The notes beneath the pieces are model-generated. The model ran no database searches. It was not told the origin of the DNA and saw only the letters and a program-made list of their open reading frames with translations. DNA of 44,612 bases, from contig JAKOPZ010000353.1 in NCBI GenBank assembly GCA_029778615.1, positions 1 to 44,612 on the forward strand, read 5' to 3'. Positions 3,989 through 39,825 of this stretch are shown here, piece by piece (the first letter of the stretch is position 1; each line of letters starts with the position of its first letter). A program made the translations under genes and the position numbers. This DNA comes from Chloroflexota bacterium (GTDB lineage: Bacteria; Chloroflexota; Anaerolineae; UBA4142; SHND01).

Positions 3989-6079
3989 TCACTCGGGGGC
4001 TTGTTCAATCCACAAATTTCCGTACCGGTCTACACGCGCATCATACTCTGGATGTATCAACGTTGTCGAATCAAATTCTTCCACAATAGCAGGACCGCTA
4101 ACGCGCGCGCCCGCGCCCAATTTGTAACGGTCATAAATCGGGCACTCTACAAAGCCGCCGCGTTCGGCAAAATAAATCGCGCGCGATTCTTTGATTGCTT
4201 GTTTCTCTGTCTTGCCAATTTCTTGCAATTGCGGTTTCGCAATTTTGCCCCACGCGGTCAGACGCACATTCACAAATTCCGTCGGCTCGTGCGGCGCGCT
4301 GAATCCGTAGGCGCGTTCGTGCGCGCGATGAAATTGTTCAAGCAACAATGAAATATCGTTCGCTTCAAGTTCGTGGTTTGGCAATGCAAGCGCAAGTTCG
4401 TAACTCTGTCCCACATAGCGCATCTCCACTTGGCGCGTAAACTGTATCTCTGTATCCGCCATCCCTTCGCGCGCGAGGACATTATGCCCCGCGCGTTCCA
4501 TTTTTTCAAACGCGTCTTGTACCGCGCGCGTGTCCAACGCGTCGACGCGTTCAATCATGGTCGTCGCGTAATCGTGTTTCAAATCGGTGACGAGGAGACC
4601 GCGCGCGGAAAAAATTCCCGGCGACATGGGAATCAGCGTCGTCGGAATTTCCATTTCTGCCGCGAGGCGGTTTGCATGAAGCGGACCTGCGCCCCCGAAC
4701 GCGATGAGCACAAATTCGCGCGGGTCGTACCCGCGCTGCACGCTCACCAAACGCAGCGCGTTCACCATCGCCGCGTTCGCAATTTCGATGATGCCGTGCG
4801 CGGCGGAAACCACGTCCATCCCCAGCTTGTCCGCGCAATGTTTTTGAATCGCCGCGCGCGCGCGTTCGACATCCAATTCGATTTCGCCGCCGAGAAAAAA
4901 TTTTGGATTGATGCGCCCCAACACCAAATTCGCGTCGGTGATGGTCGGTTCCGTTCCGCCTTTCGCATAACACGCGGGACCGGGGTCCGCGCCCGCGCTT
5001 TGCGGACCCACGCGCAGCGCGCCGCCCGAATCCACCCACGCAATCGAACCGCCGCCCGCGCCAATTTCCACCAAATCAATCACGGGTGTACGAATCGGAT
5101 AACCCGAACCGCGCGCGCTGCCATATCCCGCGCGCGCAGTGCCGCCAACCTCATAATCTTTCGTGATGCGCGGCGAACCATCTTGCACCATCCCCGCTTT
5201 CGCCGTCGTGCCGCCCATGTCGAACGAAAGAATATTTTTTTGCGCGAGCGCAGTGCCGAGATGTGCTGCGGCGATGACGCCCGCCGCCGGACCCGATTCG
5301 ACAATGAACACGGGTTTTTCGCTCGCCGCCGCGAACGTGAACACGCCGCCGCTCGACTGCATCACCAACAATTCCGCGTTCAAGCCCGCGTCGCGCAAAC
5401 GCGTTTGAATGTTTTGCAAATAACGTCCGACGAGCGGACGCAAACTCACATTGATAATTGTTGTACTCGCGCGCGTGTATTCGCGAATTTCCGGCGCGAC
5501 TTTAGATGACAATGACACCACCGCTTCGGGAAAAATTTCGGTCAAAATTTCGCCCGCGAGTTTTTCGTGCAATGGATTCAGGTACGCGTGCAAAAAGCAG
5601 ACCGCGACCGCTTCCACTTTTTCATCGCGCAATGTTTCCGCAACATGACGCATTGCGTCATAATCCAACGGCGTCAACACATTGCCCTGCGCGTCCATGC
5701 GTTCCGGTACGCCGAACGCTAAATTACGCGGCACGAGCGGTTTCGGTTTTTCAAATTGCAAATCGTACAGCGACGGACGAATCTGCCGCGCGATTTCGAG
5801 CATGTCGCGGAAACCTTCGGTGGTAATGAAACCCGTGCGCGCGATTTTGCCTTCGATAATCGCGTTCGTCGCAACCGTCGTTCCATGCACCACATAACGA
5901 ACGTCTTGCGGCGCCACATTCGCTTCGCGCAAAATGCGTTCGGTGACGCGCAAGAACGCAATCGAAGGGTCGTGCGGCGTGGAAGAAACTTTGGCGATGC
6001 GCGTTTCGCCCGTGCGCTCGTCCATCAACGTCGCGTCGGTGAACGTGCCGCCAATGTCAATGCCGAGTCGGTAGGACAT
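3989..6079 (-). CDS. hyuA: Hydantoinase/oxoprolinase subunit A (HyuA family)
   Basis: A 696-residue ATP-dependent hydantoinase/5-oxoprolinase large subunit. The N-terminal ASKHA-type phosphate loop is GIDIGGTFTDATL (residues about 6-18), followed by VVHGTTVATNAIIEGK and the second phosphate site FDMGGTTAKAG. Proteins of this family pair with a HyuB subunit to hydrolyse cyclic amides (hydantoins, 5-oxoproline) or, in acetone carboxylase, to activate ketones with ATP; the substrate cannot be read from sequence. The partner hyuB lies immediately upstream in the same direction, separated by 152 bp filled with three repeat types. The start codon has no Shine-Dalgarno sequence; a pyrimidine heptamer arm sits directly 5' of it on the mRNA. 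Context with an amidase suggests use of an organic nitrogen source. Confidence 0.92.
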   Translation of the reverse strand: MSYRLGIDIGGTFTDATLMDERTGETRIAKVSSTPHDPSIAFLRVTERILREANVAPQDVRYVVHGTTVATNAIIEGKIARTGFITTEGFRDMLEIARQIRPSLYDLQFEKPKPLVPRNLAFGVPERMDAQGNVLTPLDYDAMRHVAETLRDEKVEAVAVCFLHAYLNPLHEKLAGEILTEIFPEAVVSLSSKVAPEIREYTRASTTIINVSLRPLVGRYLQNIQTRLRDAGLNAELLVMQSSGGVFTFAAASEKPVFIVESGPAAGVIAAAHLGTALAQKNILSFDMGGTTAKAGMVQDGSPRITKDYEVGGTARAGYGSARGSGYPIRTPVIDLVEIGAGGGSIAWVDSGGALRVGPQSAGADPGPACYAKGGTEPTITDANLVLGRINPKFFLGGEIELDVERARAAIQKHCADKLGMDVVSAAHGIIEIANAAMVNALRLVSVQRGYDPREFVLIAFGGAGPLHANRLAAEMEIPTTLIPMSPGIFSARGLLVTDLKHDYATTMIERVDALDTRAVQDAFEKMERAGHNVLAREGMADTEIQFTRQVEMRYVGQSYELALALPNHELEANDISLLLEQFHRAHERAYGFSAPHEPTEFVNVRLTAWGKIAKPQLQEIGKTEKQAIKESRAIYFAERGGFVECPIYDRYKLGAGARVSGPAIVEEFDSTTLIHPEYDARVDRYGNLWIEQAPE

Positions 6080-6080
6080 A

Positions 6081-6104
6081 ATTGGAGACTAGAGATTGGA
6101 GATT
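6081..6104. repeat. Heptamer repeat abutting the hyuA start
   Basis: Units of the TTGGAGA/CTAGAGA family, 1 bp from the hyuA ATG. On the hyuA mRNA the element is pyrimidine-rich (TCTCCAATCTCTAGTCTCC) and takes the place where a Shine-Dalgarno sequence would be. Confidence 0.85.
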
Positions 6105-6127
6105 TCCGAGTTCTGATTTTCGATTTC

Positions 6128-6231: not shown

Positions 6232-7941
6232 TTATTTTTTTGCGCGCAATGTACGCGTTGCGTGTTCATCCACAATCCATTTTTCAATATCAATCACAAC
6301 ACCGTATTCCTCACGCGCGCGTTCCACGCTCACTTTTTCTTGGCGCACATCGCGCAGCACGCGTTGCGCGTCGCGTTCGTGCGGCTCCCCGTAACCGCCG
6401 CCGCCGCAAGTGCGAAAACTGATAATATCGTTTGCTTGAATTTGAATTGTCGTTTTGGACGCGAGTGGAATTTCCTCACCGCCGCGCAATAAAAAATACT
6501 GCGCGATTTTTCCTTCGCGTCCGCCAAACAAGCCGTGCGGTCCCCATCTATCGCGGTCCGACAAAAGCGAACACGACGCGTCGTGGTCAATGAATTGATA
6601 ATCGCGCCGCAGTCCGAGTCCGCCGCGAAATTTTCCCGCGCCGCCGGAATCGTTCACCAATTCATAACGCGCGAGCCGAATCGGATAATTGCGTTCGGTT
6701 TCTTCGACGGGCGCGTTCTCGGTGTTTTGTCCGTGCGTTTGCACCGCGTCCGCACCGTCTTTCGTCTCGCGTCCGCCATAGCCGCCCGCAATCGCTTCAT
6801 AGTACGCGTACAAATCACCATCGCGCGGGTCAATTCCGCCGAACGCGATTTGCGCCATCATCGCCTTTGTTCCCGCAGGCACGCGTTCGGGAATCGCTTG
6901 GGCGAGCGCTTGGAAAAGAATATCGGTGAGCCGATGCTGTGTTTCCCAGCCGCCGACAACGGGCGCGGGCATCGTGCAATTCGTAACCGTTCCTTCCGGC
7001 GCAATCATTTTCACCAACGCATAAAATCCCGCATTCACCGGAATATCGGAATCAATCAAACATTTCAAAACATACGCGCACGCGGCGAACGTTTGCGCGT
7101 AGGTGGAATTGACGGGCGCGCGTCTTTGTTCATCCGAACCCGTGAGGTCGAACAACACGCCATCGTCGTCAATCGTAATCGTCGCCGCGAGATGCACAGG
7201 TTCGTCGGTGTAACCATCGGTGTCAACCACGCCCGTCGCGGAAAAAATTCCGCGCGGCAATTTTTCTAAATCGTTACGCGCGCGGCGTTCCGTGTACGCG
7301 AGCAATTCGTCCATGTACGCGTTCAATGTTTCGATACCGTACCGTTCGGCGAGCGCGGCGATGCGTTTTGTGCCCGTGATGTTTGCCGCAATCTGCGCGC
7401 GAAAATCCCCCGCCGTTTCGCGTTTGCTGCGAATTTGCGCGAGGACGAGGCGGAAAATGTCGTCATCAATTTTTCCTTGCGCGACGAGTTTGACGCCGGG
7501 AATGATGATGCCTTCTTGAAACACTTCGCGGAACGCACCGATGCTCCCCGGCGCACCCCCCCCCACGTCCACATGATGCGCGAGATTTGCCACATAGCCA
7601 ATCAACACATCACTCGCGTACACGGGCGAAATCAACGTAATATCGTTGAGATGCACACCACCGAGATACGGGTCGTTGGCGAGAATGCCATCGCCCGCGC
7701 GCAAATTTTCCGCGCCGTACGTACGAATTACATTCGGCACAAATTTGGCGAGTGAACCAAGATGCACGGGTTGTCCCGACGCCTGCGCGATGGTACGCAT
7801 TTGGGAATCAAAAAACGCGCACGAAAAATCGTTACGCGTTTTGATATTCGTCGAGTACGCGCTGCGTTTCAGCGCGAGCGCCATTTCTTCGGTCGCTTCG
7901 ACGAGCGCAGAGGCGAGGACTTGGAAGAGGATGGGGTTCAT
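6232..7941 (-). CDS. hyuB: Hydantoinase/oxoprolinase subunit B (HyuB family)
   Basis: A 569-residue HyuB subunit. Family features visible are the N-terminus NPILFQVLASALVEATEEMA, KRSAYSTNIKTRNDFSCAFFD, the stretch GDGILANDPYLGGVHLNDIT, the conserved GGVHLNDI/AHHVDVGG metal-binding-like histidines and the glycine-rich end RTCGGGGYGEPHERD. It is the obligate partner of HyuA, forming an ATP-dependent cyclic-amide hydrolase; both subunits are full length. The ATG at 7941 lies 6 bp after the stop codon of the amidase gene and is preceded on the mRNA by a pyrimidine heptamer repeat rather than a ribosome-binding site. The pair plus amidase is probably co-transcribed. The exact substrate is unknown. 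Confidence 0.92.
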   Translation of the reverse strand: MNPILFQVLASALVEATEEMALALKRSAYSTNIKTRNDFSCAFFDSQMRTIAQASGQPVHLGSLAKFVPNVIRTYGAENLRAGDGILANDPYLGGVHLNDITLISPVYASDVLIGYVANLAHHVDVGGGAPGSIGAFREVFQEGIIIPGVKLVAQGKIDDDIFRLVLAQIRSKRETAGDFRAQIAANITGTKRIAALAERYGIETLNAYMDELLAYTERRARNDLEKLPRGIFSATGVVDTDGYTDEPVHLAATITIDDDGVLFDLTGSDEQRRAPVNSTYAQTFAACAYVLKCLIDSDIPVNAGFYALVKMIAPEGTVTNCTMPAPVVGGWETQHRLTDILFQALAQAIPERVPAGTKAMMAQIAFGGIDPRDGDLYAYYEAIAGGYGGRETKDGADAVQTHGQNTENAPVEETERNYPIRLARYELVNDSGGAGKFRGGLGLRRDYQFIDHDASCSLLSDRDRWGPHGLFGGREGKIAQYFLLRGGEEIPLASKTTIQIQANDIISFRTCGGGGYGEPHERDAQRVLRDVRQEKVSVERAREEYGVVIDIEKWIVDEHATRTLRAKK

Positions 7942-7977
7942 TAGAGATTAGAGACTGGAGATTGGAGATTGGATTTG
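7942..7977. repeat. Heptamer repeat across the amidase/hyuB junction
   Basis: About five units of the TAGAGAT/TGGAGAT word family. It encodes the last residues of the upstream amidase (SPISSL and the stop at 7948-7950) and touches the hyuB ATG. On the mRNA strand it is pyrimidine-rich. Confidence 0.88.
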
Positions 7978-8896: not shown

Positions 8897-8921
8897 TTTG
8901 GAGATTGGAGATTAGAGATTT
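8897..8921. repeat. Heptamer repeat upstream of the amidase start
   Basis: Units of the TTGGAGA/TTAGAGA family starting 4 bp 5' of the amidase ATG. It is pyrimidine-rich on the mRNA and no Shine-Dalgarno is present. Confidence 0.82.
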
Positions 8922-8936
8922 TAGAACTTTGTTTTT

Positions 8937-8964
8937 CTCTGCGCCTCTGCGTCTCTGCGTGAGA
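8937..8964. repeat. Octamer repeat (CTCTGCGT family)
   Basis: Three 8-bp units (CTCTGCGC, CTCTGCGT, CTCTGCGT) between larA and the amidase gene, followed by GAGAAG. This is a different word from the adjacent heptamers. Confidence 0.75.
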
Positions 8965-11104: not shown

Positions 11105-12522
11105 GCTGATTTTGTGAACGGCGCGAGATGTTTTTCAAAATGCTTTTGTAACGTGTCCGCGTATTCGTTTTCGTGTGCGCGCAGTGTTGCGTGAATGCGG
11201 TTGCCAAATTCGTGTAACGCGGAACCGAACGTGACATGCAACACCTCACGCGCATCAAACTCATTCAACAGTTCGGACAATTGCGCGTCACTCAATTCCG
11301 ATTCCGCGCGCACGCGCTCCACGTCGGCGGAAACGTGATAGGTCGCGCGGTCAAGCGGGTAGCGTTCGCGCGCTTGCGTCAAAATTTCGCGGAACAGTTT
11401 TGGATTCACATTCGCAATCGTGCGTAACGCTTCGAGGTAACTTGTGCCTGCTGTTTTCACGTGCGCGAGATTTTGGGTGGCAGACGCAAACAACGGATAC
11501 ACGCTCAACTTGTCCGAACCCGAATGTAACGAAAGTTTGTAATTGAAATGCCGCGCGATGCGCGCGTGTTGATTCAGATTTTCCGCGAGCGCGTCGAGGT
11601 CGCCGATATAGTCCACGCCTTTTTCAAAACGTCCAATGAAACGCGGCGCAAGACTCGTCACGCGCACGTTCAAGCGCTGCAACTCGTTCGCAAAATAAAA
11701 ATGCTCAGCAATATCTGTCGGCAATTCCGTCTCGTCCACCGAAACTTCAAAATCAAACGCGGCATTATTTTTTTGCCGCGCGATTTCTTGAAACATCGTG
11801 ACCGCGTGCGCGACGGCGCGCCCATATTTTACAATCGCGCGCAGCAGCGATTCGTCCGTCAATTGAATTTGCAAATCATCGAGCGCGAACGTTTGATTCA
11901 AATAACGTGCGCGCAAATTTTCGAGCGAATCGTTCAACACATCCCACGGCAGCGCGTTGGCTTTTTGTTCCAGCGTTGCGCGTGAATCGGTTGGCGCATC
12001 ATTGTCCACAAATTCGCCGGGGTCAACGGTGAAAAAGGTATAGCCCGCCGCGATGAACGGCGCAATATCCTGTGTCGTTTTCAAATGGTCGGCGTCCGCG
12101 CCCCACGCGTCGCGCCAGCCGCATTGAAACACGCCCCACATCGCGTCGTCCATCACTTGCTGCGGCGTGCGTCCCGTGCGCGCATTTTCACGCACCGACT
12201 GCTGCGCGAACAACGCCGCAATATTTTTCCCCCGCGCCGCCTGAATATGTCCCGGCGTTGCCAACCCCAAACGGTCGCCGTAACCGAACGATGTTTGCAA
12301 GCCGCACGGTTTCGCATTAAGCCATTCCAAACGTTTTCGCAATTCTGCCGCGTTGTGCGCGTTCAGCGGAAAATATTTCGCGTCGTCCTGTTGAAACGCG
12401 AGCTTTGCAAATCCCTCCGCGTCGCCGCGCACACACAAAAATTTTTCCGTATCCGCGCGCACGAGGGAATACGTTGTTCCGCTGTGTTCGACGCGCGAAT
12501 CAAGATACTCTATCGTTTCCAT
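11101..12522 (-). CDS. uxaE: D-tagaturonate 3-epimerase
   Basis: A 473-residue protein of the UxaE family first assigned in Thermotoga, converting D-tagaturonate to D-fructuronate. Visible family features include FGYGDRLGLATPGHI, the block from ARTGRTPQQVMDDAMWGVFQ, TFFTVDPGEFVDND, a metal-site-like SVDETELPT, and LHSGSDKLSVYPLF late in the chain. The start lies inside the 3' end of uxaC (23-bp overlap). Unusually, its Shine-Dalgarno (GGAG, 8 nt before the ATG) is supplied by a heptamer repeat in the purine orientation. The 3' end overlaps uxuB by 4 bp. With uxaC and uxuB it makes a three-step route from galacturonate to mannonate; the epimerase replaces the usual tagaturonate reductase/altronate branch. 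Confidence 0.88.
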   Translation of the reverse strand: METIEYLDSRVEHSGTTYSLVRADTEKFLCVRGDAEGFAKLAFQQDDAKYFPLNAHNAAELRKRLEWLNAKPCGLQTSFGYGDRLGLATPGHIQAARGKNIAALFAQQSVRENARTGRTPQQVMDDAMWGVFQCGWRDAWGADADHLKTTQDIAPFIAAGYTFFTVDPGEFVDNDAPTDSRATLEQKANALPWDVLNDSLENLRARYLNQTFALDDLQIQLTDESLLRAIVKYGRAVAHAVTMFQEIARQKNNAAFDFEVSVDETELPTDIAEHFYFANELQRLNVRVTSLAPRFIGRFEKGVDYIGDLDALAENLNQHARIARHFNYKLSLHSGSDKLSVYPLFASATQNLAHVKTAGTSYLEALRTIANVNPKLFREILTQARERYPLDRATYHVSADVERVRAESELSDAQLSELLNEFDAREVLHVTFGSALHEFGNRIHATLRAHENEYADTLQKHFEKHLAPFTKSA

Positions 12523-13990
12523 TCGCTAATCTCCAGTCTCCAGTCTCCAGTTTGTACGCGCGTTTCGCCAATCCATACGCCAACTCGCGCGCCATGTCCA
12601 TTGCCTCATTTTCGTCAAGGATGTGCCGCGTGACAAGTCCTGCGAGCCAATTCGTCGTTGCGCGCCGCCATACATCATGCCGCACGGGAATCGAAGCAAA
12701 CGCGCGCGTGTCGTCATTGAAACCGACCGTGTTGTAAATGCCTGCTGTTTCTACCACATTATCAAAAAAATGATGAAATCCATTGAGCGAATCGTAAAAC
12801 CACCACGGCGGTCCGAGTTTCACCGCAGGATAATGTCCCGCGAGCGGCGCGAGTTCGCGCGAGTATGTTGTTTCGTCCAACGTAAAAAGAATCAACGTCA
12901 AACGCGCATCGTTCCCAAACTTGTTTAACAACGGCTGCAAATTCCGCGTGTACTCGGTCGCAATCGGAATATCCGCGCCCTTGTCCGCGCCAAATTTTTT
13001 GTACACCGATTCATTGTGATTGCGAAACGAACCGGGATGCAATTGCATCACGAGTCCGTCGTCAACACTCATGCGCGCCATCTCAATTAACATGTGCGCG
13101 GTGAATTGCGCGGCATCGTTCGCGTCTGCCGCGCCTCGTAACGCGCGCTGGAAAATATTTTCCGCGTTTACTTTGCTCAATTCATTCGTGTACGGTGTCA
13201 CCGCCGCGTGGTCGGTTGCCGTCGCGCCCATTTGTTTGAAAAATGCACGACGCTGCTCCAGCGCAGAAATGTACGACGAATAATCGTGTACGTCAATGCC
13301 GCTGACGCGCGCTAACGCGTCAATGTTCGCGCGCCAATTCGCGGCGTCGAGATTCAAAACATTGTCGGGACGAAACGTCGGGCGAATGTCGCCGCGCCAA
13401 CCCTCTCCCCCATCCCCTCTCCCTCTGGGAGAGGGGAGCATACTCGACGCGCGGATTTTTTGATGAGATTCGAGCGGGTCAATTGCCGCGTCCGTTGTAC
13501 ACAAAACCTCGATGTTGAATTTTTCGTACAACGCGCGCGGGCGAAATTCGGGCGCCGCCAATTTTTCCACAAGCGCATCGTACAGGCGCGGCGCGGATTC
13601 GCCGTTCAAATTTTCGTCAATCCCAAAAATCGTTTCGAGTTCGTCTGTAATCCAAATCCCCGTCGGCGTGCCGCGAAAGAGATAAAAATTTTCCGCGAAC
13701 GTTTGCCAGATTTTGCGATGGTCGTTTTCCACCGCACCGGCATCTGCACGCGGAATGCCTAACGCCTCCATCGCAATCCCTTGCGAATACAACATGCGAA
13801 AAATATAATGGTCGGGAAGGATGAACAAATCCGTCGGCGTGCCGAACGAAAAATGCTCATCCGCAAACGTGCGCGGGTCAACGTGTCCATGCGGACAAAT
13901 CAACGGCAGCTGCGCGATGTGTTGGTACAACGCGCGCGCAATCTCGCGCTGCGCGGGGTCGGGGGAAAAATAGCGGTCGGGGTGAAGCAT
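12500..13990 (-). CDS. uxaC: Uronate (glucuronate/galacturonate) isomerase, with in-frame repeat insertion
   Basis: A 496-residue UxaC, converting D-galacturonate to D-tagaturonate or D-glucuronate to D-fructuronate. The N-terminus has PLICPHGHVDP with the metal-binding HGH, then RMLYSQG; later GIWITDELETIFGI, MQLHPGSFRNHN and VGFNDDTRAF follow family order. The ATG at 13990 has AAAGGA 6 nt upstream and begins MLHPDRYFSPD; the ATG at 14014 would overlap the cupin gene. Two departures are of note. About 15 residues (near SMLPSPRGRGDGGEG, codons around 13400-13442) interrupt the conserved segment between KIRAS and WRGDIRPTFRPD, and are encoded by a palindromic repeat. The C-terminal LETGDWRLANGNDRVS is translated heptamer repeat. 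The rest is intact, so the enzyme is probably active. Confidence 0.93.
   Translation of the reverse strand: MLHPDRYFSPDPAQREIARALYQHIAQLPLICPHGHVDPRTFADEHFSFGTPTDLFILPDHYIFRMLYSQGIAMEALGIPRADAGAVENDHRKIWQTFAENFYLFRGTPTGIWITDELETIFGIDENLNGESAPRLYDALVEKLAAPEFRPRALYEKFNIEVLCTTDAAIDPLESHQKIRASSMLPSPRGRGDGGEGWRGDIRPTFRPDNVLNLDAANWRANIDALARVSGIDVHDYSSYISALEQRRAFFKQMGATATDHAAVTPYTNELSKVNAENIFQRALRGAADANDAAQFTAHMLIEMARMSVDDGLVMQLHPGSFRNHNESVYKKFGADKGADIPIATEYTRNLQPLLNKFGNDARLTLILFTLDETTYSRELAPLAGHYPAVKLGPPWWFYDSLNGFHHFFDNVVETAGIYNTVGFNDDTRAFASIPVRHDVWRRATTNWLAGLVTRHILDENEAMDMARELAYGLAKRAYKLETGDWRLANGNDRVS
12524..12554. repeat. Heptamer repeat at the uxaC/uxaE overlap, purine on the mRNA
   Basis: Units of CAGTCTC on the plus strand, so GAGACTG on the mRNA. 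It encodes the C-terminal tail of UxaC, and its last unit provides GGAG 8 nt before the uxaE ATG. Orientation is opposite to most copies that sit at start codons in this window. Confidence 0.88.
13401..13441. repeat. Palindromic repeat inserted in frame in uxaC
   Basis: A core inverted repeat at 13414-13436 has perfect 10-bp arms (CCCCTCTCCC and GGGAGAGGGG) around TCT, with a flanking CCCTCTCCCCCAT. It resembles the CTCTCCC/GGGAGAGGGG intergenic repeats seen in many bacterial genomes. Here it adds about 15 residues to a conserved enzyme without breaking the frame. Confidence 0.85.
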
Positions 13991-14000
13991 GGTTAATCCT

Positions 14001-14342
14001 TTATTCGGCGACATTCCACTGAATCACATAATACGTCGCGGGTTCGTCGCCAACATTTGTCCAGCCGTGCAACTCATTCGACGCGACAAACAGAATGTCG
14101 CCGATATTGAGACGCGTGATTTGATTTTCCACACGCGCTTGCAACATTCCTTCTTTGATGATTATTATTTCTTCGTGGCGATGTTGATGCGGCGGATGCG
14201 GCGACGCGCCGGGATTCAATGTCGTCACATGACATTCGATTTCTTGCAGCAGCATCGTCGGCATTTGAAAAAATTTTCGCACCGCACCGACTTGAGTGGG
14301 TGTAGCGGGAATGGAATTCCACTCAAAACTCTGCGAGTTCAT
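14001..14342 (-). CDS. Small cupin-domain protein
   Basis: A 113-residue single cupin. The first cupin motif is HQHRHEEIIIIKEG (metal ligands His, His, Glu), followed by NQITRLNIGDILFVAS, and the second motif carries the ligand His in SNELHGWTN. Small cupins of this form bind a metal and act as isomerases, dioxygenases or ligand sensors; here the gene lies between a rhamnosidase and uxaC, so a role on sugar acids is likely but cannot be named. Its start overlaps the 3' end of the GH78 gene by 20 bp and its stop is 10 bp before uxaC, so all three are probably translated from one message. Confidence 0.82.
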   Translation of the reverse strand: MNSQSFEWNSIPATPTQVGAVRKFFQMPTMLLQEIECHVTTLNPGASPHPPHQHRHEEIIIIKEGMLQARVENQITRLNIGDILFVASNELHGWTNVGDEPATYYVIQWNVAE

Positions 14343-17016
14343 TCGCTTTGCTCCATAATTCTACCGTGTGTTTGCCCGAATCAATTCCCTCAATTACAAA
14401 ATAATTTTCCTCTTGCACACAATTCGCGCGTTCTCCATCCACAACAATTCGCGCGTTAGAAAAATTACCACGCGGCACACACATTTTCGCTTGCACGTTC
14501 GCGGGGAGTTCAAGCGTCATTGCAAAACTTTTTTCGCTGCGTTGCCAACGCACAAAAATTTCACCGCGTTCGGTTGGCACGCGCCCTTGCACAAATTTCA
14601 ACGCGTTGCCAAAATCGAGCGGCTTGATTTGCGCGCGGGCGTATTGCGGCGCGAGCGGTTTGACGCCGAGAATGTATTGTTGAATCCCGCACAATCCGAC
14701 TGCACCCCACGGATGCGATTGACTCAAGTTGCCGCCTTGGTCAGCATCCCAACTCTCCCACGTACACGTCGCGCCGCGCTCAAGACATTTCGCCCAACCG
14801 TCCCATTCGGCATTCGTGTACAAATTCAGCAAATGTTCACCCGCGTCCATTTCACCCAACGCGCGCACAAGCCAATACACGGTCACCATGCCGACGGACA
14901 TTTTCAAATTTTTTACGTGCTGCAAAACTTGCGCGCGTTTTTCGGGCGGCACGATCCCGAGCGCGAGCGGAAACATATTCGCGTGCTGCGACGCGTGCGC
15001 GCTTGCTGAACCGTTTTCGTACAACCCATCAACATACACGTCGCGGAGCAAATGATGATTGATGGCATTTTTCAAATCATTCGCCCGCGCCGCGTAGATT
15101 TCGCAATCGTCTGCGTTCCCAAGTTCCGCCGCGATGTTTGAAATGATTTCATAGTCCGCATACGCGTAACAATTGATGACGGTGCGCGCATCGGTTTGCA
15201 TGTCATAGCCGTAACGCATTGAGGGAGGCCAATCTACGATGCCATGCAAATATTCTCCGCCGCCGCCGCGCAATTGATGAATCAAACGCGTTGTTGTGTT
15301 GCGATGGCGATGCACGTACTCGGCGATGCTTTTCAGTTTCGCATAATTTTCTCGCAAAAAAATTTTATCACCCGTCTGCAAATAATATTCCCACACCCAC
15401 ACCAAATATGCTTGCGTGAAATCGGGAATGTCGCGCGCGCCGTCGCCGTTTGGAAACACCGCGTTCAGGCGTCCTTCGTATGGGCGATTGAAATCGCGGC
15501 AACCCAACGCCAAGTCCGCCTTCGCAGACTCTTCGACGGAAGTCGAATTCGCAATGCGTTGCGGATTGAAATCGCGGCAACCCATCGCCAAGTCCGCCTT
15601 CGCAGACTCTTCGACGGAAGTCGAATTCGCAATGCGTTGCGGATTGAAATCGCGGCAACCCAACGCCAAGTCCGCCTTCGCAGACTCTAATTCGACGGAG
15701 GTCGAATTCGCAATGCGTTGCGGCGAATTGATTCGCCCATCCCAATACTGCTCCATACTCTGCAAAAATTCGCGCAGCGTCTTGCGCGTCAACACGCGTT
15801 CGCCGTATGCGAACATCGCGGCGAGCGATTCGTTCATGCTGTCCACGAGAAAGCCGCCTTTTTCGCGCGTGGGCGTGTCGAGAAATTGTTCCTGCGCGCC
15901 GAGCGTGACGGAGTGTTTGCACAAGTCCCACACCGCGTTCAACGTGGGATGCGATGATGTAAATGCTGAACGCGACGCGTCCAATTCCGCGTGACGAACG
16001 ATGAATGAAAAATTTTCGCGCGTAATTGGCATCGGCGCGTTCTCGATTTGCACGTACCTCATTCCCAAATACTCGCAAGGTAAAAACGTGAACGCGCCGC
16101 CATTCGCAATCGCGTAAAACGTCATATCCGTATTTTGATTCTTGTCCGCGTCAATTGTGCCCTCATCGCGCAGTGCGTAACCGCCGCATATCGTTATCAA
16201 TTGTCCCGCGCGTCCGCCCGAAAAAATTATGCGTGGGCGCCCCGCATACACTTTGCCCAAATCAACAACATATATCTCGGGTGGGTTTGTCATTTCGAGC
16301 CGTCTTTGCGAGAAATCTCTTTCGCCAAAACCGAGATTTCTCGCTCCGCTCGAAATGACAGCTGTGATGGAAACAGGCGCGATTTCGTACTCGACGATGC
16401 GCGAGATATCGAGTTGCAAAATTCCCGTCCACGGTTCCGTTGGGTGCGCGCCGATTTCGGTTGCATATTCCCATGCCGATTCGTCGTACTCGCGCGCAAA
16501 CCAATTCGGCATGATTTTCGCCGCGTCAATTTTTTCGACGTAACCGACACCTTCGTCATTGCGCAGCGGCTGTCCCAACACCCAACATTCCGCGCACGTT
16601 TGTTTCCATGTTCCATCACTGCAAACGATTTGGTGTGCGCCGTCCGCGTACTCGAGGTTCGTTTTCAAAATCATTCCGCGCGCGCTCGCGGGTCTGCCTT
16701 GTCCTGCGCCGAACCAGTGGGTGAAAACGGCGAAAGTGTTTTGCGCGTTCGGAACGAGCTGCGTTGTAATGTCGTAGGCGTTGTAATACTGATATGGCGG
16801 AGAATGGTACGAGGGACCTTTGCCGATTAAATGCGCGTTGAGATAGAGTTCGTACTTGTGAACGGCGGAAACGTACAACGTGGCGCGTTCGATATTTTTG
16901 TCTTGAACAAAAAATGTTTTGCGATAGTACGTGTAATCGTCCGTATCGTCACACGCGCGTTTAATCCACAGCGCGCCGCGCCAATCGTCATTCGTCAACG
17001 GAGCTGTCTCATTCAT
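14323..17016 (-). CDS. Alpha-L-rhamnosidase-like glycosidase (GH78 type) with two in-frame repeat insertions
   Basis: An 897-residue enzyme of the GH78 alpha-L-rhamnosidase kind. No signal peptide is visible, so it probably acts in the cytosol. Beta-sandwich domains come first (TYYRKTFFVQDKN, VHKYELYLNAHLIGKGPSY). The (alpha/alpha)6 catalytic domain follows, with the acidic segment FLDTPTREKGGFLVDSMNES, PDFTQAYLVWVWEYYL and TCTWESWDADQGGNLSQSHP. A C-terminal beta domain starts near GVKPLAPQYARA. Two foreign stretches interrupt it: ISSGARNLGFGERDFSQRRL (from the element at 16288-16360) and three copies of a 26-27-residue unit (STSVEESAKADLALGCRDFN; DNA 15486-15722) directly before RPYEGRLNAVFPNGD. 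Both keep the frame. Without them the length would be near 800 residues. Rhamnogalacturonan fragments are the likely substrate, given the GH4 and uxa genes beside it. Confidence 0.82.
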   Translation of the reverse strand: MNETAPLTNDDWRGALWIKRACDDTDDYTYYRKTFFVQDKNIERATLYVSAVHKYELYLNAHLIGKGPSYHSPPYQYYNAYDITTQLVPNAQNTFAVFTHWFGAGQGRPASARGMILKTNLEYADGAHQIVCSDGTWKQTCAECWVLGQPLRNDEGVGYVEKIDAAKIMPNWFAREYDESAWEYATEIGAHPTEPWTGILQLDISRIVEYEIAPVSITAVISSGARNLGFGERDFSQRRLEMTNPPEIYVVDLGKVYAGRPRIIFSGGRAGQLITICGGYALRDEGTIDADKNQNTDMTFYAIANGGAFTFLPCEYLGMRYVQIENAPMPITRENFSFIVRHAELDASRSAFTSSHPTLNAVWDLCKHSVTLGAQEQFLDTPTREKGGFLVDSMNESLAAMFAYGERVLTRKTLREFLQSMEQYWDGRINSPQRIANSTSVELESAKADLALGCRDFNPQRIANSTSVEESAKADLAMGCRDFNPQRIANSTSVEESAKADLALGCRDFNRPYEGRLNAVFPNGDGARDIPDFTQAYLVWVWEYYLQTGDKIFLRENYAKLKSIAEYVHRHRNTTTRLIHQLRGGGGEYLHGIVDWPPSMRYGYDMQTDARTVINCYAYADYEIISNIAAELGNADDCEIYAARANDLKNAINHHLLRDVYVDGLYENGSASAHASQHANMFPLALGIVPPEKRAQVLQHVKNLKMSVGMVTVYWLVRALGEMDAGEHLLNLYTNAEWDGWAKCLERGATCTWESWDADQGGNLSQSHPWGAVGLCGIQQYILGVKPLAPQYARAQIKPLDFGNALKFVQGRVPTERGEIFVRWQRSEKSFAMTLELPANVQAKMCVPRGNFSNARIVVDGERANCVQEENYFVIEGIDSGKHTVELWSKANELAEF
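15486..15722. repeat. Three tandem 78/78/81-bp units inside the GH78 gene
   Basis: Units at 15486-15563, 15564-15641 and 15642-15722 differ at only a few bases; the third has three extra bases (AAT). All keep the reading frame. Each contains small inverted repeats: TTCGAC-GGAA-GTCGAA and GCGATT-TC-AATCGC (in complement). There are no unique spacers, so this is not CRISPR; it looks like amplification of a palindromic repeat after insertion. Confidence 0.95.
16288..16360. repeat. 73-bp palindromic element, copy 1, in frame within the GH78 gene
   Basis: Terminal inverted repeats of 13 bp (TGTCATTTCGAGC and GCTCGAAATGACA) flank an inner GAGAAATCTC/GAGATTTCTC pair. The translated form is ISSGARNLGFGERDFSQRRL. 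A second copy lies between genes at 22238-22328 in the same orientation. It has no coding capacity of its own and resembles a non-autonomous REP/MITE-like element. Confidence 0.9.
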
Positions 17017-20107: not shown

Positions 20108-21058
20108 TCATCCAATTTCCTTTTCAAGCCGCTCCGCAATATCGCGCAGCACCGCCACATCACTCTCAGGACGACGCGGGGAATTGGGATGTGGGCAATC
20201 GCTGGCGATGATGCCGCGCAATTTCAAAAACATCGCGGCGTCGTGTTTGTACGCGGGCACGGGCGGACGAAACGCAAACATGCCGAGATATTGCAGCACA
20301 TCATTCAATTCATAAAAACGCGCGTCGCCGTTCGCCCAAAACTCGTCGCGCCGCGCGAACGCATCGGGCGCAAACGTTGCAAGCCCCAACAAATAATCGC
20401 TGCCGTACATCACCATATCAATCGCCAAATCGTTGCCGGTATAAATTTTGAAATCGGGACGCACCTCATCGCGTAACGCGAGCCGCTGCCATTCGAGTTC
20501 GCGTTGGAGCGACGAATGTTTCATGCCGACGATTTGTGGAATCTCCATCCAGCCGCGCACAACCTCCAAATCGTAAATTTGTCCGAACGGCGCAAACATT
20601 TCGCCCAACTCAAACGCGAGCATTTTTTCGCAGTGTGATGCGACATCACGGTACAACGTGACGATTTCGGCGGGCGACAATTTTTTCAGCGCGGAACATT
20701 GAAACAAAATTGGTGTGCCGCCGAACGCTTGAATCGTTTCACATTCGCGTACATACAACGCGCCCGCGTCGCCCGTTTCGTTTTCGACGAACGCGCCCGC
20801 GACAAAATTTTTCCCTTGCAAAATCTCGCGCGTTTTTTCCAACACCGCGCGCCGTTCTTCACGCGTCAGCAAATTCACATAGCCCGTATCCATATTGACC
20901 GCCGGCGTGAGTCCCGCGTTCACGACGCGCGCGAGAATTTCCGCGAAACTGTCCAAGTCCATTTGCCCGCGTTCGGTGTACGGCAAGAGCACCGCAGAAA
21001 TTCCTTCAATGCGGCGATTTGGAATGAGGCGGTGAGTGAGTTGGGGAATGGAAAACAT
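20108..21058 (-). CDS. DapA/NAL-family class I aldolase or lyase
   Basis: A 316-residue protein of the dihydrodipicolinate synthase/N-acetylneuraminate lyase superfamily. The barrel begins RRIEGISAVLLPYTERG, and the Schiff-base Lys is probably the one in IVGMKHSSLQ (about residue 190), followed by IYTGNDLAI. The usual GTTGE motif near the first third is replaced by NMDTGYVNLLT, so it is not a housekeeping DapA. Members with this form occur in sugar catabolic clusters beside Gfo/Idh/MocA dehydrogenases, as here. A 2-keto-3-deoxy sugar acid aldolase is attractive in this context but unproven. The start is preceded on the mRNA by the pyrimidine arm of the heptamer hairpin and has no Shine-Dalgarno. 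Confidence 0.75.
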   Translation of the reverse strand: MFSIPQLTHRLIPNRRIEGISAVLLPYTERGQMDLDSFAEILARVVNAGLTPAVNMDTGYVNLLTREERRAVLEKTREILQGKNFVAGAFVENETGDAGALYVRECETIQAFGGTPILFQCSALKKLSPAEIVTLYRDVASHCEKMLAFELGEMFAPFGQIYDLEVVRGWMEIPQIVGMKHSSLQRELEWQRLALRDEVRPDFKIYTGNDLAIDMVMYGSDYLLGLATFAPDAFARRDEFWANGDARFYELNDVLQYLGMFAFRPPVPAYKHDAAMFLKLRGIIASDCPHPNSPRRPESDVAVLRDIAERLEKEIG

Positions 21059-21161
21059 GGAGATTGGAGATTGGGGATTGAGGACTGGAGACTAGAGACT
21101 TGGGGTCAGTGGCAGTGGGCAGTAATCAGTAATCAGTCTCCAGTCTCCAATCTCCAGTCTC
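21059..21161. repeat. Complete heptamer hairpin between the Gfo/Idh and DapA-like genes
   Basis: Read on the mRNA strand: a purine arm of GAGACTGGAGATTGG type right after the stop, then (ACTGATT)2 and ACTGCC units, themselves heptamers, then a pyrimidine arm of TCTAGTCTCCAGTCCTC type ending at the ATG. The whole junction of about 100 bp is made of 7-bp words. Confidence 0.9.
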
Positions 21162-22237: not shown

Positions 22238-22328
22238 TGTCATTTCGAACCCCTCAATCCTTCGGGGTAAACTCTGTGAGAAATCTCAGTTTTTTCCACC
22301 GAGATTTCTCGCTCCGCTCGAAATGACA
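22238..22328. repeat. 91-bp palindromic element, copy 2 (same family as 16288-16360)
   Basis: Bounded by TGTCATTTCGAA and CGAAATGACA with inner GAGAAATCTCAG and GAGATTTCTC. It is 18 bp longer than copy 1 because of an extra CCCCTCAATCCTTCGGGG segment, itself partly palindromic. It fills the spacer between the two Gfo/Idh/MocA genes. Confidence 0.88.
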
Positions 22329-35153: not shown

Positions 35154-35166
35154 CGAAAAAAACAAA

Positions 35167-35236
35167 GACTGGAGACTAGAGACTGGGGACTGCGGTACAC
35201 GTCTGGTCTCTAGTCTCTAATCTCCAATCTCTCCTC
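35167..35236. repeat. Heptamer hairpin forming the tpiA leader
   Basis: The left arm has units ACTGGAG, ACTAGAG and ACTGGGG; the right arm has TCTGGTC, TCTAGTC, TCTAATC, TCCAATC and TCTCCTC, and ends exactly at the ATG. The purine arm comes first and the pyrimidine arm last on the mRNA. Confidence 0.9.
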
Positions 35237-39745: not shown

Positions 39746-39789
39746 TGCCGAATGCACAATACACAAATTACCGATTCACTCCATCACCC

Positions 39790-39825
39790 AATCTGTAATC
39801 TCCAGTCTCTAGTCCCCAATCTCCC
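39790..39825. repeat. Heptamer repeat, pyrimidine arm
   Basis: Units AATCTCC, AGTCTCT, AGTCCCC and AATCTCC on the plus strand, the same family as at 35203-35236. Here no purine arm is found beside it. Confidence 0.82.

Follow-up and report, generated by a model that had tools for sequence, protein, structure and literature searches.

The CGTC REPs are one of the described systems against which the repeat considered here can be set. In the survey by Di Nocera et al. (2013, PMC3733652), they carry the tag CGTC, often changed to TGTC, and have stems of 8–9 bp that begin with complementary A-T residues, loops of 4–5 and tails that are mostly CCA. The survey describes head-to-head dimers as predominant, intragenic copies as adding 20–30 residues, and the repeats as lacking an attached transposase; in some species the dimers lie inside longer palindromes, and RPE-4 and RPE-6 of Rickettsia are classed as CGTC/TGTC-tagged REPs. 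It closed by asking what moves CGTC REPs. A second system comprises the REPINs and their RAYTs (Bertels and Rainey 2011, PMC3116915; PMC8266576). The transposase TnpA-REP recognises folded single-stranded REPs that bear a conserved tag and, in E. coli, an irregular stem (PMC8266576).

The window analysed here is a stretch of 44,612 nucleotides from a Chloroflexota bacterium, and it includes a TGTC-tagged palindromic element within a gene for a GH78-type alpha-L-rhamnosidase (Table 1). It is very likely that this element is a REP dimer of the CGTC/TGTC type, REPIN-like in form, which inserted in the gene, added about 24 residues and was kept. The element starts TGTCATTTCGAGC and ends GCTCGAAATGACA. 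A sequence-only reading of the window had given its coordinates, its length of 73 bp and its perfect terminal inverted repeats of 13 bp correctly, and the 91-bp relative it named is real and intergenic, almost filling a 102-bp gap between two oxidoreductase genes. One 28-base arm ends both elements, and one arm of the 91-bp dimer has an apical loop of 25 bases. As single-stranded DNA, the 73-mer has a folding energy of −24.8 kcal/mol, versus −9.1 ± 2.1 for shuffled sequences (z −7.6; 0 of 200 shuffles). Rfam returned nothing matching within the window, and a literature search with the literal sequence of the element gave nothing. A 14-base unit (AGATTGGAGACTAG and variants) also recurs in the window as short arrays.

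Table 1. Coordinates of the GH78 element, its parts, its host gene and other repeats in the window
Feature	Position	Strand	Description
GH78-type alpha-L-rhamnosidase gene	14323..17016	-	Insertion host; 897 codons
REP dimer in the GH78 gene	16288..16360		73 bp, head-to-head, TGTC; about residues 219-243 of the protein
Left REP arm, long-loop form	16288..16319	+	TGTC-ATTTC-GA-GC-CGTCTTT-GC-GA-GAAAT-CTC; stem identical to the 28-base arms counted
Spacer separating the arms	16320..16332		13 bases
Right REP arm, standard 28-base form	16333..16360	-	Minus-strand reading TGTC-ATTTC-GA-GC-GGA-GC-GA-GAAAT-CTC
REP dimer of the same family	22238..22328		91 bp; between two oxidoreductase genes
78-bp repeat in the GH78 gene	15486-15719		Three in tandem, in frame; about residues 430-512
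Uronate isomerase gene	12500-14014	-
Extra segment in the uronate isomerase gene	13379-13420		About 14 residues
Arrays of the 14-base unit	1223-1295, 6067-6125, 7933-7977, 8897-8941, 21058-21156, 35166-35233, 39788-39820	both

Each half of the GH78 element forms a hairpin of its own, and two REP hairpins together, not a single palindrome, make up the unit. The arm follows the rule TGTC, A-NNN-C, GA, two bases, a loop, two complementary bases, GA, G-N'N'N'-T and CTC, with a stem of 5 + 2 pairs interrupted by a GA/GA mismatch, a loop of 3 or of 7–25, and the tail CTC. Many arms are paired head to head, mostly in pairs of 65–95 bp. In the GH78 element this pair consists of a long-loop arm, a 13-base spacer and a standard arm, with TGTC outermost in both arms. 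The collection of copies that the sequence-only reading had proposed was made by pattern search and region by region, and the arm has 118 matches (≤3 mismatches) in the 6.0-Mb home genome, many of the copies being intergenic, versus 0 for a reversed-pattern control. The repeat can be described, as that reading had it, as a non-autonomous palindromic element, and it is dispersed. Matches number in the hundreds in relatives; the arm is frequent within the genus and within a sister family of the order, and 40 other families of the class almost lack it. In one congener (G001, e.g. C7:8097-8142) a compact 46-bp form is abundant, whose two arms overlap and have the centre GAGATATCTC in common.

The pairing of the stem was analysed with a pattern in which the variable stem positions were left free, applied to relatives and to 301 genomes of the phylum, 24 of which gave matches. 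The TGTC tag, the GA/GA mismatch and the tail are preset in this pattern, so that their constancy across relatives is built in. Among 51 distinct arms the stem is paired in 93.6% of cells, two-sided changes number 66 as compared with 21.5 in shuffles, and the covariation score is 0.493, against 0.195 when shuffled and at most 0.144 when the partners are slid. The outer stem occurs as ATTTC/GAAAT, ATATC/GATAT, ATTCC/GGAAT, ACATC/GATGT and ATCCC/GGGAT, and the inner stem as GC/GC, AC/GT and AG/CT. The stem is thus kept by compensatory change, as in REPs.

A test for target-site duplication, called for by the sequence-only reading, had a divided outcome. Among 23 naked dimers, collected with a loose filter that may have admitted a few spurious pairs, none is flanked by a duplication of at least 5 bp (0.55 expected from swapped flanks), and the GH78 copy has no target duplication either. 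In contrast, 35 distinct copies lie inside a near-identical MITE, either 122 or 144 bp long, with the ends ACYYAATGTGCAAC, and 33 of these 35 have duplications of 5–9 bp, mostly 6–7, a count made without a shuffle baseline. A second MITE, with TTACGCA ends, is represented by seven copies, all with a repeat of at least 6 bp (0.97 expected from swapped flanks), although for one copy the longest match could be to the repeat ends themselves. A third set of flanks, with GGACTT ends, shows possible duplications in three of six cases. At least two MITE families therefore have the REP dimer as their core, and the duplications at the MITE copies imply DDE-type transposases acting in trans. It could be argued from these 35 and seven copies, and from the left arm of the GH78 element, whose CGTCTTT loop matches in type those of 121/122-bp MITE copies, that the GH78 copy is what is left of a truncated MITE, its outer ends and target duplication gone. 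We regard this as unlikely: neither the GH78 nor the 22238-22328 copy has MITE outer ends or duplications, the flanks at 16288 and 16360 hold no trace of a MITE end, and the 23 naked pairs share cut points at identical TGTC ends, which decay would not produce.

We were unable to find a mobiliser encoded beside the repeats. Genes with the PF01797 (Y1_Tnp) domain are present in 17 of the 20 genomes searched, yet at 31 of the 32 Y1_Tnp loci read in this set no arms lie within up to 1.5 kb. At the remaining locus (L033, 1745-1880; G000:C164:17547-17668) the arms belong to a copy of the REP-dimer MITE that interrupts the Y1 transposase gene, with the 9-bp duplication ATAAGAATT. A RAYT gene flanked by arms was not found in any of the 20 genomes, and the sequence-only suggestion of a RAYT as the mobilising enzyme is thus not supported. 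The assembly also yielded no autonomous partner of the GTGCAAC MITE, as close matches to its ends (0–1 mismatch) fit MITE copies and none marks a longer element. From the covariation of the hairpins and the missing duplications, and by analogy with TnpA-REP, we infer that the bare dimers would have been moved by a single-strand route.

In the GH78 gene, which is read on the minus strand, the frame is open through the element, in agreement with the earlier statement that the frame used has no stop. The protein has its rhamnosidase domains above the Pfam cut-offs, and the element sits between an N-terminal domain that ends at residue 188 and a concanavalin-like domain that starts at residue 245. 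The closest homologues in named genomes are those of a Myxococcales MAG (55%), a Sedimentisphaerales MAG (50%) and three Actinoallomurus strains (36–37%). All five lack the segment, having about 6 residues where the host protein has 30, and the condition under which the sequence-only reading would have been abandoned, the same residues in distant GH78 proteins, was not encountered. On the evidence of these homologues from three other phyla, the 73-bp element in the GH78 gene is an insertion; as they share at most 55% identity with the host protein, they do not fix its exact junction. The net gain is 24 residues, or 72 nt. The statement that the length of 73 bp, with target change, leaves the frame intact needs correction in this respect: 73 is not a multiple of three, and at least one base at the site must have been lost or changed. 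The structure model of the protein is of poor quality (mean pLDDT 54); in it the insert, with a pLDDT below 50, lies between two strands. The same gene contains an unrelated 78-bp repeat, absent from the five homologues, that has further copies or fragments at scattered places in the genome.

The sequence-only reading had also asked how many copies lie in frame in genes. Besides the GH78 copy, three more are read through, namely in a MauG-type peroxidase (C312:4399) and in two PMT-like membrane proteins (C340:51157 and C74:10244), in a scan that looked for open frames and in which frame-breaking insertions fall outside the count. All three genes have recognisable domains and congeneric homologues, and the empty site is seen in four congeners for MauG (net 78 nt), in five for C340:51157 (net 63 nt) and in four for C74:10244 (net 96 nt). 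In-frame insertion in unrelated genes, absent from orthologues, thus holds for the GH78, the MauG and the two PMT-like genes. Between them, the four copies have the palindrome read in three different frames, evidence against selection for a common peptide. The C74 element is present at the same place in congener G003, whose gene has about 76% nucleotide identity, and this in-frame copy has therefore persisted through that divergence. The arms of this shared copy are 88.7% conserved as compared with 76.2% for the coding flanks, but 11% of flank windows reach the same conservation, and the difference is not significant. In the uronate isomerase gene next to the GH78 gene, about 14 extra residues (SMLPSPRGRGDGGE) relative to the solved structure 2q01 look like a third in-frame repeat insertion.

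The insertion of two different repeat families in the GH78 gene, the REP dimer and the 78-bp unit in three copies, might be taken to mean that the gene is decaying, with a frame that is open by chance and no working enzyme made. This is more improbable still than a MITE remnant, since all 897 codons are free of stops, the rhamnosidase domains exceed the Pfam cut-offs, many positions invariant across the six aligned proteins are retained, and the in-frame pattern is seen again in three other genes. That the segment is a native extension of a GH78 subfamily, merely resembling the repeat, has nothing beyond the open frame in its favour and is scarcely credible, being already contradicted by the absence of the segment from homologues and by the DNA itself, which belongs in full to a repeat whose 118 arms are in many cases intergenic. 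The description of the element as tolerated within an enzyme stands as regards its in-frame position in an enzyme gene; as regards tolerance, the open frame and the intact domains suggest that the host enzyme probably still works.

According to the preferred reading, a REP dimer would have entered the GH78 gene between the N-terminal and the concanavalin-like domains, the naked dimer having presumably moved as a folded single strand by means of an enzyme acting in trans, e.g. a Y1/HUH transposase not encoded alongside. The insertion may have been kept because it was short, free of stops in the frame used, located at a loop, and of a net length change that is a multiple of three; most other intragenic insertions would have been removed by selection. 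For other copies a second route is seen, in which the dimer forms the core of MITEs of at least two families; this implies a DDE-type transposase in trans. More generally, we tentatively propose, as a possibility that we hold with some doubt, that TGTC-type REPs spread partly as passengers, at the core of at least two DDE-moved MITE families, and also as bare hairpin pairs, genes included. A single genome that holds both bare REPs without duplications and MITE-borne REPs with clear ones allows the two routes to be compared side by side. The in-frame palindromic insertion best known from Rickettsia is moreover now seen in an unrelated lineage, where it affects metabolic and membrane genes, and two diverged species have one such insertion in common.

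Compared with DDE-type MITEs, the family is alike in that other copies of the core lie in elements of 122/144 bp, nearly identical to one another, that have terminal inverted repeats and 5–9-bp duplications; the GH78 and 22238-22328 copies, which lack both outer ends and duplications, and the want of an autonomous partner in the assembly set it apart. With the REPINs and RAYTs (PMC3116915; PMC8266576) it shares paired inverted hairpins, a conserved unpaired tag, an irregular stem and naked copies without target duplication, while the tag is TGTC rather than GTAG and the 20 genomes contain no arm-flanked RAYT gene. The likeness to Rickettsia palindromic elements pointed out in the sequence-only reading fits, as the palindromes are read in frame inside unrelated genes and RPE-4 and RPE-6 are classed as CGTC REPs in the 2013 survey (PMC3733652); the host lineage is unrelated, the stem sequence is another, and fewer intragenic copies were found. 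As in the CGTC REPs of that survey, the family has the TGTC tag, a stem that starts with A-T, a predominance of head-to-head dimers, intragenic copies and no attached transposase. Compared by description and not by consensus sequences, it departs from them in its 5 + 2 stem in place of 8–9 bp, its loop of 3 or longer in place of 4–5, and its CTC tail in place of CCA, and it is therefore a variant and not a plain member; it is also carried in MITEs with target duplications. In-frame palindromic insertion is thus a known phenomenon, and the present family is a new variant; that the dimer also travels in MITEs flanked by target duplications is what touches on the survey's closing question, how CGTC REPs are moved.
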